From an uncultured Clostridia bacterium (GTDB lineage: Bacteria; Bacillota; Dehalobacteriia; UBA4068; CALXSR01), in the NCBI GenBank assembly GCA_944391215.1, contig CALXSR010000037.1, positions 1 through 64,000 on the forward strand: a stretch of DNA of 64,000 nucleotides, in the 5' to 3' direction. The translations under genes and the position numbers were made by a program. The notes beneath the pieces are model-generated. The model was not told the origin of the DNA, did no database searches, and saw nothing but the letters and a program-made list of their open reading frames with translations. Positions 16,697 through 20,938 of the stretch are shown here, piece by piece; the first letter of the stretch is position 1; each line of letters begins with the position of its first letter.

Positions 16697-16838
16697 AATT
16701 GTTCCAATTTAAGCAAGAATATGTTCAGGAACGTGTAAAGGAAGTAACGAAGTGGCCAATAGCACTCCTTTTTGTTTGCGACAAAATCATCTCTTGCAAA
16801 AAATTATCCTTTCATATGAACAGGCTAGGCCGCCTTTG

Positions 16839-16847
16839 CATATGATA
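16839..16847 (+). promoter_or_regulatory. Possible sigma-K-type -10 element
   Basis: CATATGATA matches the CATANNNTA pattern of sigma-K -10 boxes, about 37 bases before the start of the Cys-rich gene. The -35 side is weak, so this is suggestive only. Confidence 0.3.
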
Positions 16848-16883
16848 AAACATGAAAGTAATTTTTTTTAAGAGGTGATTTTT

Positions 16884-17603
16884 TTGAGAAGTTGTTATCC
16901 TTATTGCGCAGGCGGTGGTTGCGCCGGGAATTGTCCTCCCGTAAAATTCCGCCAAGTATACAGAAAAATTCAAGCACAAAGACTCATTGATCAATGCACG
17001 GATTGCCAACCCATTGAAAGGACGGTTAGCATACCCGTTTCCACTTTCCCCGGTCTTTCAGTAGGCGACCCCTTAAACTGCAAACTGAACAATTCCATTG
17101 AGTACCAGGATGTAACTTACCCCAACAACAGCAGACGCACGGACAAATGTACCAACCCGGTGGTAGACTTAATTTTCAATTTAACCTTTAAGTTATCGCC
17201 CCCAGGGTGCGACTGCAACCCGGATACCTATTTGGTACCGGTTACTGTAGCCCGCAGTATTGCCCTATGCGTTGCTCCAGCGGCCATTATAGACGCCAGC
17301 CAATCCAGTTTAATTAACTGTTTTGCGGTTGTTTCCGCCGTTAACGACACCAATTACACCATATTGCTTTACATCGTCCCCTGCTTTGTCATCAGCAGCA
17401 TTGTAAACGAAAACATTTGCATTACCGGCTTCCAACCGGTGGATGAAAACTCGGCCTTGCCGCCTTGCTGCCAAAAACTAAATTGCGCTGCTTTAGATAG
17501 CGTTTATGGTTGCGGCAACTTTGGCTACAATACCACTGCCAATAGCGATGGTACCGTGAATGTTTCCAGTATGCCTATGGTTACTACCACAACCACGCGG
17601 TAA
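16884..17603 (+). CDS. Cysteine-rich protein of unknown function (coat-like)
   Basis: 239 aa with about 20 Cys. An N-terminal cluster reads RSCYPYCAGGGCAGNCPP and a second occurs at SALPPCCQKLNCAALDSVYG. The centre is beta-rich and hydrophobic, and the tail is Thr-rich (VTTTTTR). There is no signal peptide and no domain I recognise. The composition recalls spore-coat or exosporium proteins. The TTG at 16884 is preferred: AAGAGGTGA is five bases upstream, whereas the GTG at 16875 overlaps that site. A strong terminator follows, so it is monocistronic. Confidence 0.7.
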   Translation: MRSCYPYCAGGGCAGNCPPVKFRQVYRKIQAQRLIDQCTDCQPIERTVSIPVSTFPGLSVGDPLNCKLNNSIEYQDVTYPNNSRRTDKCTNPVVDLIFNLTFKLSPPGCDCNPDTYLVPVTVARSIALCVAPAAIIDASQSSLINCFAVVSAVNDTNYTILLYIVPCFVISSIVNENICITGFQPVDENSALPPCCQKLNCAALDSVYGCGNFGYNTTANSDGTVNVSSMPMVTTTTTR

Positions 17604-17660
17604 AAAATTTTTTCTCATAGGAACCAAATACCAAAAGCTGCATACAATAAAGTAACCGCC

Positions 17661-17732
17661 GGAGGATAGAAAAAAGAGAACCGGATTGCGATTTTGTCGC
17701 GTCTTGTTCTCTTTTTCTCTATCCTCCTTTTT
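17661..17732 (+). terminator. Long-stem terminator of the Cys-rich gene
   Basis: Arms 17661-17681 and 17706-17727 pair over about 21 bp with one bulge, enclosing a smaller GCGA/TCGC hairpin, and are followed by a T-run. Confidence 0.8.
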
Positions 17733-17833
17733 TCGTTTGTCAAATCCGCCACGATTGACAACAAAAATTCCCCTTACCTCTCCTTAACCAAAGAACATCT
17801 CTTAGAAAAGAAAACGCCACAAAAATCTCTCCG

Positions 17834-17861
17834 AAAGAAGAAAGCAACTGCTTTCTTCTTT
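17834..17861. repeat. Perfect 12-bp inverted repeat
   Basis: AAAGAAGAAAGC and its complement separated by four bases, in the gene-free stretch 17604-18213. It has no long T-run on either side; role unclear. Short frames here on both strands look like shadows. Confidence 0.6.
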
Positions 17862-17953
17862 GCCTCTTATGGCTGATATGCAGCCAAAAAAGAAAAAACA
17901 ATAAATTTGGCCCAATCTGGCACAGCTTGTCCCAAATTTTCATAGTATATAGT

Positions 17954-18113
17954 AGAGAAAGGGAGCGGCTGCCTCGAAAAAATCACCGCCAAAAACCCCC
18001 GCCTGCACATCTGCTTCTCTCCTTTTGCCTTCTGTCAACAACCCCCAAAAAGCAAGGCTTCCTTTCTCTTTGATATAAAAACCGCAGGCCCACCCCCGGC
18101 CTGCGGTTTTGTG
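17954..18113 (+). ncRNA. Candidate structured RNA ending in an intrinsic terminator
   Basis: The gene-free interval holds a 13-bp closing helix (17954-17966 with 18057-18069, one G-U pair). It encloses a C-rich, mostly single-stranded interior of 90 bases. A 13-bp terminator stem (18078-18090 with 18098-18110) and a T-run follow directly. A weak promoter-like TTGTCC...TATAGT lies at 17927-17953. The closed-helix-with-large-bubble plan resembles 6S RNA in outline, but I cannot match its sequence, nor SRP RNA or tmRNA. Confidence 0.4.
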
Positions 18114-18213
18114 TATTTTCCATGAAAAATGTCTTCTTGCCCTTTTATAAAATGCCAAGTCAGGATATAATAAAAAAAGATTTTGACCAATTTGCAAAAG
18201 GAGAAGAGAAAAA

Positions 18214-18750
18214 ATGAAAAAATTGAAAAAAGTAGCATTGGCCTTGGTAGCCGGTTTACTTGTGTTTGGCCTGGCTGCTTGTGGCGATAAAAATGAGGGC
18301 AACAACAATAACAGCGATAGCAAAAAAGAAGTAACCTACTATTGGGATTTAAAAGATGGTTGGCAGGTAACATTGCCTCTTACCTGGGAAAATAATTATC
18401 TGGCGGAAAAAATAGAAAGCGAAGAAGGTAATTTTACCACTATCTATTATGCCCCCAAAGGAGATAAAACAAATTACGCTTTATTTAGTATTGGCGTGAT
18501 GCCGCAGGAAAATTGGGAACAATATGCAGAAGACGCCTTGCCCGGCATTTACTTAGAAGAACGGGACGGTTATATTTATTATTCGGTTTTCCCGGAAAAA
18601 GAGGAAACCAATGCCAAATTATATAAACAGATGTTGGAAGAAGCGCATAATACTTCTTTCCAAACCATTAAAAAGACCGAAAACTTGCCGCAAGATCCGA
18701 ATGCCCCCATCACCAGCCCGGATGATGACAATAATAATGCCAATCAGTAA
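18214..18750 (+). CDS. Lipoprotein of unknown function
   Basis: 178 aa. The signal ends LAAC (Cys near residue 24), giving a lipid-anchored protein with a short Asn/Asp-rich spacer. A globular domain follows (about residues 45-155: YYWDLKDGWQVTLPLTWENN, then ALFSIGVMPQENWEQYA) and an Asn/Asp-rich tail. The domain has no family I can name; its strand pattern recalls PsbP-like or Mog1-like lipoproteins, a guess only. ATG follows AAAAGGAGAAG. Terminators on both sides make it monocistronic. Confidence 0.8.
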   Translation: MKKLKKVALALVAGLLVFGLAACGDKNEGNNNNSDSKKEVTYYWDLKDGWQVTLPLTWENNYLAEKIESEEGNFTTIYYAPKGDKTNYALFSIGVMPQENWEQYAEDALPGIYLEERDGYIYYSVFPEKEETNAKLYKQMLEEAHNTSFQTIKKTENLPQDPNAPITSPDDDNNNANQ

Positions 18751-19334: not shown

Positions 19335-20207
19335 TTAGCAATTGAAAGCAGCCAATACCGTAGCAATATTTTGCTTGATGCAAATAGATTGCTGGGCAAT
19401 TTCGAGGGGACAAAAGGCTTCTCCCCAATTACAACAAAGGTATTGCGCTTTTTGATTGGAAGCGGTCATTTGCCAAAAAGGAAATTTAATAATACCAGGA
19501 GTATTTCCGCCCACGCCCAATTCCCAGTAAAGCACCCGATCGGTTTGATGCTTGGCCAGAAACGCTTCATAACGGCTTTGGGCCGCATACCAACCGGCGT
19601 CTTGTACAAAGGTATGATCGCAATGTAAATTCATGCTCATAGGTTGGCCGCAAAGGGGGCAATAAGGGATAGCTTCTGTTGGAGTCCGCATATTTTTTTG
19701 TTCCGCTACCATGCGGCGCACGGCTTCTTCATTATCATATGTTTTTTGATGGCAAGGAACGCTGCATTGCCAAAGACCATAATCGCCTTGCGTATAAAAA
19801 AGGCGTTCTTTGGCAAAACCAGACAGTTGAAATTGATGGTCTACATTGGTTGTTAGAACAAAATAATCTTTATTTTGCACAAGTTCATATAACTTTTGAT
19901 ATACCGCATTCGGTTTGCTATCATAGCGATTATAATAAATATGACGGCTCCAATAGGCCCAAAATTCTTCTAAGGAAGGATAAGGGTAAAAACCGGCCGT
20001 ATACAGATCGGTAAAATGATATTTTTGGATAAAATCGGCAAAATGCTCGGCGAACAAAGGACCATCATAACAAAAGCCGGCCGCGGTAGACAAACCGGAA
20101 CCGGCCCCGATGAGAACGGCATCTGCTTTTGCCAAAGCCTCTTGTGCTGCTTCAATTTGCTGCCAATCGTTTTTGATAGATGATTTCATCCTCTGTTGTG
20201 AATACAT
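19335..20207 (-). CDS. SirTM-class (class M) sirtuin
   Basis: 290 aa NAD-dependent Sir2-fold enzyme. Motifs are GAGSGLSTAAGF (NAD binding), LTTNVDHQF, YTQGDYGLWQC and a Cys pair CPLCGQPM. SirTM enzymes act as protein mono-ADP-ribosyltransferases on lipoylated GcvH-L in staphylococci and streptococci and are encoded beside a macrodomain hydrolase, as here. The ATG at 20207 has GGAGGTAG six bases upstream, so the gene overlaps the macrodomain gene by 56 bases. No GcvH-L or lipoate ligase gene is adjacent. Confidence 0.88.
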   Translation of the reverse strand: MYSQQRMKSSIKNDWQQIEAAQEALAKADAVLIGAGSGLSTAAGFCYDGPLFAEHFADFIQKYHFTDLYTAGFYPYPSLEEFWAYWSRHIYYNRYDSKPNAVYQKLYELVQNKDYFVLTTNVDHQFQLSGFAKERLFYTQGDYGLWQCSVPCHQKTYDNEEAVRRMVAEQKNMRTPTEAIPYCPLCGQPMSMNLHCDHTFVQDAGWYAAQSRYEAFLAKHQTDRVLYWELGVGGNTPGIIKFPFWQMTASNQKAQYLCCNWGEAFCPLEIAQQSICIKQNIATVLAAFNC

Positions 20208-20931
20208 TGAATACTACCTCCATTTGGGTTTGCTTCATTTCTAAATAATTTTTCACAGTATCGACGGCAATTTGCGCAGCCAGCGCCTGTGGAAAATGAT
20301 ATTCCCCAGTAGAAATACAGCAAAAGGCAATGCTTGCACAATGATTTTTTTCCGCCAGTTGTAAACAGGACCAATAACAGGATTGCAATAATCTTTTATC
20401 CTCCGCGCTGGGTTCCTTTAGCACCATAGGCCCCACGGTATGCAAAACATAACGGCAAGGCAACTGAAAACCAGGCGTTAATTTAGCTTGTCCGGGAGCT
20501 TCCTCCTGTTTTTGCCGCGTCATGATATCCCAACAAGCCAAACGCAGCTGCACCCCGGCGGCGGTATGAATCGCGTTATCAATACAACCATGCCCCGGAC
20601 AAAAGCAACCCAATAAAGCGCTGTTGGCAGCATTGACAATAGCATCTACTTGTAATGTAGTAATATCTCCCCGCCATAAAAAAAAGCCGTTGGCCATGGG
20701 TTGTAATTCGGCAAGCGTTGTAATATGCTTTTTTTGTTTTTCTTCTTGTAAATACTTATCCTGCACTTGTAAAAATTCTACCGCAATGGGTCGCGGCGGC
20801 CGCATATTTTGCAAAGCACGATACCACTTTTTTAGTTCCGCTTCTGTTTCCGGCGGCTGTATGCCATCATATTGCGCATCTTCCGCCAACAAAAATTGAA
20901 CCAAATAACGCAAACGCTCTTGTTGCTGCAT
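20152..20931 (-). CDS. Zinc-type macrodomain, protein-ADP-ribose hydrolase
   Basis: 259 aa. A helical N-terminal part (about 75 residues) is followed by a macrodomain. Its signature is ITTLQVDAIVNAANSALLGC then CPGHGCIDNAIHTAAGVQLR, with the Cys/His set of the zinc-dependent macrodomains paired with SirTM. It would remove ADP-ribose placed by the downstream sirtuin. ATG at 20931 follows AAAGGGG. The upstream region is a long pyrimidine tract. Confidence 0.9.
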   Translation of the reverse strand: MQQQERLRYLVQFLLAEDAQYDGIQPPETEAELKKWYRALQNMRPPRPIAVEFLQVQDKYLQEEKQKKHITTLAELQPMANGFFLWRGDITTLQVDAIVNAANSALLGCFCPGHGCIDNAIHTAAGVQLRLACWDIMTRQKQEEAPGQAKLTPGFQLPCRYVLHTVGPMVLKEPSAEDKRLLQSCYWSCLQLAEKNHCASIAFCCISTGEYHFPQALAAQIAVDTVKNYLEMKQTQMEVVFNVFTTEDEIIYQKRLAAN

Positions 20932-20938
20932 TGCCAAA

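Follow-up and report, generated by a model that had tools for sequence, protein, structure and literature searches.

Whether the spacer between two genes of an uncultured Clostridia bacterium encodes a small RNA of its own, and what such an RNA might act on, is the question raised by this locus. The DNA analyzed (hereafter the window, 64,000 nucleotides in full length) contains the spacer 17604-18213 (610 bases), which separates the open reading frames (ORFs) 16875-17603 and 18214-18750, and both flanking genes lie on the + strand. In agreement with the original prediction, by which the interval was gene-free, no convincing gene was found between these two frames; a small ORF at 17954-18125 was rejected, because none of the five start codons there has a recognisable Shine-Dalgarno sequence upstream (judged by eye). 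Coordinates of all features are compiled in Table 1.

Table 1. Features of the candidate RNA locus and its flanking genes, in window positions
Feature	Positions	Strand	Remarks
Sigma-K-type promoter match of upstream gene	16818-16847	+	GAACA-N15-GCATATGATA, 36 bases 5' of start codon
Predicted target 1, upstream gene	16874-16888	+	Shine-Dalgarno and TTG start codon (16884)
Gene of Cys-rich 239-aa protein	16884-17603	+	start taken as TTG 16884; no family match
Sigma-K-type promoter match of RNA	17920-17949	+	GCACA 17920-17924, TCATAGTATA 17940-17949
Closing helix, 5' arm	17954-17966	+	AGAGAAAGGGAGC; predicted RNA 5' end, placed from the promoter
Loop segment 1	17973-17987	+	CTCGAAAAAATCACC; complementary to 16874-16888, 15 bp, one G-U
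Two CCCCC runs in loop	17996-18046	+	starts 17996 and 18042
Loop segment 2	18018-18028	+	TCTCCTTTTGC; complementary to 18194-18204, 11 bp; mean unpaired probability 0.62
Closing helix, 3' arm	18057-18069	+	GCTTCCTTTCTCT
Intrinsic terminator	18078-18110	+	third CCCCC run in its loop
Sigma-A-type promoter match of downstream gene	18144-18171	+	TTTATA-N16-TATAAT, 10/12, after terminator
Predicted target 2, lipoprotein gene	18194-18204	+	Shine-Dalgarno, GCAAAAGGAGA
Gene of 178-aa protein	18214-18750	+	lipoprotein-type start, no known family

The architecture described in the original prediction, a helix of 13 bp around a C-rich region of 90 bases with a strong terminator behind it, was recovered in all its parts. 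The closing helix consists of 13 pairs including one G-U, 35 of the 90 loop bases are C, and the terminator has 13 pairs and a 7-base loop, with a z of -6.59 for the fold of 18075-18118. Between the helix arms the predicted interior is one large, mostly unpaired C-rich loop. The CCCCC run in the terminator loop starts at 18093, and three CCCCC starts within 100 bases occur at two other places in the window too. When the 610-base interval was dinucleotide-shuffled 200 times, an equally good helix arose in 4 cases, and in 1000 shuffles of 17954-18074 (121 bases) it never arose. The + strand of the window contains three helices with 13 or more pairs, no more than one G-U and arms 50-130 bases apart, and the - strand contains none; the closing helix alone is thus weakly above chance and proves little. 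Without the terminator, the fold of 17954-18074 does not surpass those of shuffled sequences (z -1.18, with 25 of 200 shuffles folding equally well), and with the terminator included z is -4.63.

Homologues that could corroborate the helix were sought at several levels. Among the matches listed, a blastn search of 61 genomes returned besides the locus itself short matches only (best E 0.0048), and in 398 genomes of the phylum the single match to the RNA was the RNA itself; no second genome of the window's own family is among the matches listed. A covariance model built from this single sequence and run on 35 genomes of the order and 43 of the class pointed to six places in other genomes at E up to 0.03, and the five examined are taken as chance or plain terminators. 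L109 (39 bits, E 1.1e-6 for one genome) forms two adjacent hairpins without a 90-base loop and was lost under stricter filters, L118 has retained the terminator and, of the closing helix, four pairs, most closing pairs are missing from L111, and L113, whose E of 0.026 refers to one genome of 35, has 3 of 13 closing pairs broken and falls partly in a spacer. In L110 13 closing pairs are present, but the site is located within an ORF of the other strand. L112 was set aside as a terminator-only match.

For the flanking genes no syntenic relative was found either. Apart from its own sequence, the Cys-rich protein matches one protein in the 35 genomes of the order (in G032, with E 3.8e-5 for one genome, 21% identity, and 25% in pairwise alignment); this homologue was not recovered by tblastn at 1e-3, and a comparison with the PDB gave nothing convincing (best E 0.22). 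Three matches besides itself were obtained for the lipoprotein in the 35 genomes of the order, each of 35-64 residues at the N-terminal end, and no viral contigs with the lipoprotein were found; plasmids and phages gave no match. For the uridine-kinase-like neighbour 256 relatives were found and 80 loci kept; in the loci collected, tblastn of the other neighbours found only those of the window itself, and the ORF list of the nearest locus (L028, 9000-21611) contained none of the window's other neighbours. Further downstream, at 19335-20937 on the - strand, a sirtuin-like gene overlaps a macro-domain gene, an arrangement that we take to resemble SirTM/macrodomain pairs.

Three such helices on one strand, the unremarkable fold without terminator and the lack of a homologue in these searches would all fit spacer DNA without a functional RNA, in which a purine/pyrimidine inverted repeat and a terminator came together by chance. 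Against this explanation, which we regard as quite unlikely, stand a + strand terminator of 13 bp that has no gene to terminate, positioned past the upstream gene's own hairpin at 17661-17727, as well as a promoter match that ends at the helix and a loop complementary to both neighbours.

The original prediction also held that no family was recognised, and it was correct in this respect, as Rfam reaches threshold in the window for a tRNA only. Up to an E of 10, no Rfam family, the sRNAs RsaE/RoxS, FsrA, LhrC and others included, has a + strand match listed within 17954-18113; the 29 matches in 17600-18215 are all under their gathering scores and 15 of them concern microRNA models. The lowest E (0.0018) belongs to Atu_C9 on the - strand at 18079-18176, which was rejected at 21.2 bits against a cut-off of 40 and rests on the terminator hairpin.

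The suggestion that the RNA was perhaps 6S-like had to be given up. A long closing helix and a similar length are shared with 6S RNA (RF00013), and the two 6S RNAs described for B. subtilis (PMC7430163) offer a precedent for a second, diverged copy. However, the matches listed for 17600-18215 up to an E of 10 include none to RF00013, the genome's 6S RNA lies on another contig (C47:67688-67864, 90.3 bits against the Rfam cut-off of 46.4), and the interior of the candidate is a mostly unpaired C-rich loop without a strong terminal hairpin, so that the central bubble of 6S between closing stem and terminal hairpin is absent from the predicted fold. A second 6S RNA is hence extremely improbable.

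Neither a promoter nor a complementarity to the two ribosome-binding sites had been mentioned in the original prediction, and it is on these that a further reading depends. In B. subtilis the sigma-K consensus is given as KCACM / GCATANNNTA (PMC3416734), and a very similar one, with AC at -35, is reported for sigma-K promoters of C. difficile (PMC3789822). The putative promoter of the RNA agrees with the B. subtilis consensus in 5/5 and 6/7 specified bases, and that of the upstream gene in 4/5 and 7/7. With 15 bases between GCACA and TCATAGTATA, or 16 between CACA and CATA, the elements before the RNA resemble a sigma-K-type promoter at the usual spacing. The match ends 4 bases before the closing helix, and were transcription to start 5-10 bases past the -10 element, the RNA would begin at the base of the helix. 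The bacterium carries spore-formation genes, and its genome contains a sigma-K gene at 330.9 bits against a cut-off of 298.65, which was passed by none of 14 control genomes, B. subtilis included.

Genome-wide, the pattern MACM-N16-CATANNNTA has 30 matches (~8e-6 per position and strand) versus 20 for the reversed pattern, so that single matches mean little; in 380 kb, eight matches were counted against 1-5 for wrong spacings and three for the reversed pattern, and the enrichment in the genome is modest. Two matches fall at this locus, one before the RNA and one 36 bases ahead of the Cys-rich gene's start codon, and the remote homologue of the latter in G032, a member of another family, shows AACA-N16-CATATAATA also 36 bases before its ATG. 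As sigma-K was chosen after looking at the sequence, promoter probabilities are post hoc. According to a crude test, 10 of the 30 matches lie in apparent spacers, and five of these ten have a gene start within 150 bases, namely those before the coat-like gene (the Cys-rich gene, listed a second time as L165), L167 (95-aa Cys/Gly-rich protein), L169, L173 and L160; the products of the last three are presumably YtaF-like, vWA-like and HD-like, respectively. The RNA's own match is among the five without a nearby gene start.

The matches at L167 and L173 (motif at 1501-1529, - strand) precede a Cys/Gly-rich and a vWA-domain-like protein, which are perhaps spore surface proteins, and four spacer matches without a gene start within 150 bases by the crude test (L157, L170, L171 and L177, motif at 1501-1529) are candidates for further sporulation RNAs. 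Within the spacer itself, a second sigma-K-like match, AACC-N15-CATACAATA with a 15-base spacer (17622-17649), lies between the Cys-rich gene, whose stop it closely follows, and the long hairpin 17661-17727, which is 11 bases away (z -7.83 for the fold of 17640-17740); this hairpin region is perhaps the terminator of the Cys-rich gene or another short sporulation RNA. A purine/pyrimidine hairpin of 12 pairs with no gene attached (17834-17861) is located between the long hairpin and the RNA, and an inverted repeat (17902-17939), whose arms AAATTTGG and CCAAATTT are about 20 bases apart, spans the -35 region of the RNA promoter and might be an operator.

That the RNA is independently transcribed, as its layout originally suggested, is supported at the level of sequence only: the candidate has a promoter match and a terminator of its own, the upstream gene is followed by its own hairpin, and the downstream gene is preceded by its own sigma-A-type promoter match. 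Synthesis of the RNA, its two ends and use of the promoter are what we infer from these signals.

The second element concerns the loop, in which two segments are complementary to the ribosome-binding sites of the two flanking genes (Table 1); a mean unpaired probability of 0.85 was calculated for 17974-17988, which overlaps segment CTCGAAAAAATCACC. Among 63 crudely called genes of the window, 11 exact pairs with the loop occur at the two neighbours only, the next best gene having nine, and after addition of 257 genes from 316 kb of the genome at least 11 pairs are reached at 7 of 320. With one G-U allowed, the coat-like gene ranks first of 320 with 15 pairs. By approximate opening energies the neighbours rank third and seventh of 320, with L130:12685 and L136:99 above both and three more above the coat-like gene. 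Gene starts were taken from a simple script and at least one is wrong, L136:99 being internal, since its Pfam match begins at profile position 99; it was excluded from the comparison without the neighbours given below and is retained in the 320-gene scan, the opening-energy ranking and the tests with 2000 shuffles, 200 shuffles and 1572 intergenic pieces. The other genes with at least 11 pairs (KdpC, ABC permease, rubrerythrin, polyprenyl synthetase) have no common theme.

In 2000 dinucleotide-shuffled loops at least 11 pairs were never obtained at both neighbours, and singly in 66 and 9. A second set of 1000 shuffled loops gave at least 15 pairs with one G-U at the coat-like gene in two, at least 11 at the lipoprotein gene in four, and both in none. 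Intergenic pieces of 90 bases (1572, overlapping and from both strands) reached at least 11 pairs at both of their flanking genes in no case and at a single flank 11 times. All these probabilities are post hoc, as the lipoprotein match was seen by eye before the systematic scan and the statistic was chosen after seeing the sequence. The 11-mer GCAAAAGGAGA occurs seven times in the genome, including the opposite strand of the RNA and the lipoprotein Shine-Dalgarno; of the other five sites, four lie inside open frames of 486-737 codons, and the fifth (L123) resembles one arm of a hairpin and is not followed by a start codon in the next 16 bases. The same 11-base coat match is present at one other gene, L136:10892, and in half of the pairing with the coat-like gene an A-run faces a T-run.

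A general anti-Shine-Dalgarno character of the loop was considered as well. Against shuffles the loop appears exceptional (7 of 320 versus a mean of 1.16, with 0 of 200 shuffles as high). With the neighbours and the one wrong start removed, matches to ribosome-binding sites fall to 4 of 317, a number equalled or exceeded by 64 of 1568 intergenic pieces and by 29 of the 202 pieces with C+T of at least 0.60. This claim was dropped, because the loop is not enriched compared to real pyrimidine-rich spacers. Complementarity beyond chance thus appears confined to the two neighbours and does not extend to ribosome-binding sites generally.

The ordinary complementarity of the loop to ribosome-binding sites, as expected for pyrimidine-rich DNA, leaves room for an RNA that is driven by sigma-K and pairs with its neighbours only by coincidence, acting instead on other mRNAs or via a protein, or having no action; promoter match and terminator do not depend on any pairing. 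We consider this unlikely, because both neighbours at 11 pairs were encountered in none of 2000 shuffles and none of 1572 control pieces. Very unlikely, in our estimation, is a cis-acting leader of the lipoprotein gene, either an attenuator or a riboswitch, in which the helix would be the P1 stem and the hairpin a conditional terminator, and the loop would pair in cis with the Shine-Dalgarno on readthrough. Such a leader would agree with the terminator ending 103 bases before the lipoprotein start codon and with the complementarity to the Shine-Dalgarno of this gene, but the lipoprotein gene has its own promoter match (10/12) after the terminator, in the fold of 17954-18090, a stretch extending over the 5' arm of the terminator, this arm stays unpaired, no Rfam family reaches threshold here, and the match to the upstream gene would be left unexplained.

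A regulatory RNA seems likely because of the sigma-K promoter match and the complementarity of the loop to the ribosome-binding sites of both neighbours taken together; that it is, specifically, a sigma-K-driven small RNA that blocks the Shine-Dalgarno sequences of both neighbours is proposed tentatively, at slightly less than an even chance. It would be a non-coding RNA of about 155-165 bases, transcribed late in sporulation in the mother cell between the sigma-K promoter and its own terminator. By locking the 5' end to the 3' part, the 13-bp helix would shield the 5' end and present the C-rich middle as an open loop, of which two segments would pair with the Shine-Dalgarno regions of the flanking genes and block translation. 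On account of its cysteines and its promoter the Cys-rich protein is perhaps a spore coat protein. If so, the same sigma factor would switch on transcription of the coat-like gene and, through the RNA, then damp its translation, an incoherent feed-forward loop which would cap the amount of the product or set its timing, whereas the downstream target would be a vegetative-type lipoprotein gene. That the RNA pairs with these sites in the cell, that it represses them and that the upstream protein has a role in the coat are all presumed here from the sequence, and the complete scheme, in which a single locus of the late mother cell forms an incoherent feed-forward loop with a sigma-K RNA repressing both a sigma-K coat gene and a vegetative lipoprotein gene, is less likely still.

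The proposed mode of action has relatives in the Firmicutes. FsrA and RoxS are described as sRNAs which block Shine-Dalgarno sequences via C/U-rich segments, a C-rich region of FsrA having been proposed to pair with the ribosome-binding sites of its targets (PMC7430163), and LhrC is reported to have three CU-rich sites, one of them in the terminator (PMC4132741). With FsrA, RsaE/RoxS and LhrC, as these sources portray them, the candidate would share unpaired C/U-rich segments for Shine-Dalgarno pairing, several per RNA; unlike them, it has no Rfam match and a sigma-K-type promoter, its predicted targets adjoin it, and its entire binding region is enclosed by a long helix. In Bacillus subtilis, SurC is an sRNA under sigma-K control (PMC9147052), likened to the candidate by description only. 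SpoY of Clostridioides difficile is a sporulation sRNA that represses by base-pairing with the ribosome-binding site of a sporulation mRNA (PMC10267692); by this account it acts on spo0A at the start of sporulation, whereas the candidate would act late and on its neighbours. Hence both the functional class and the control of an sRNA by sigma-K are already known from these reports. An sRNA that joins late timing in the mother cell to targets next door did not turn up in searches of open-licence papers, which is no proof of absence.

If the proposal is true, this bacterium would have a late-sporulation sRNA with named, directly testable targets, and since the locus supplies the RNA, the type of promoter and two base-paired targets, the question could be addressed with few constructs. 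It also suggests a general search, in which gene-free spacers with a sigma-K-type promoter, followed by a terminator, would be inspected for complementarity to the flanking ribosome-binding sites.
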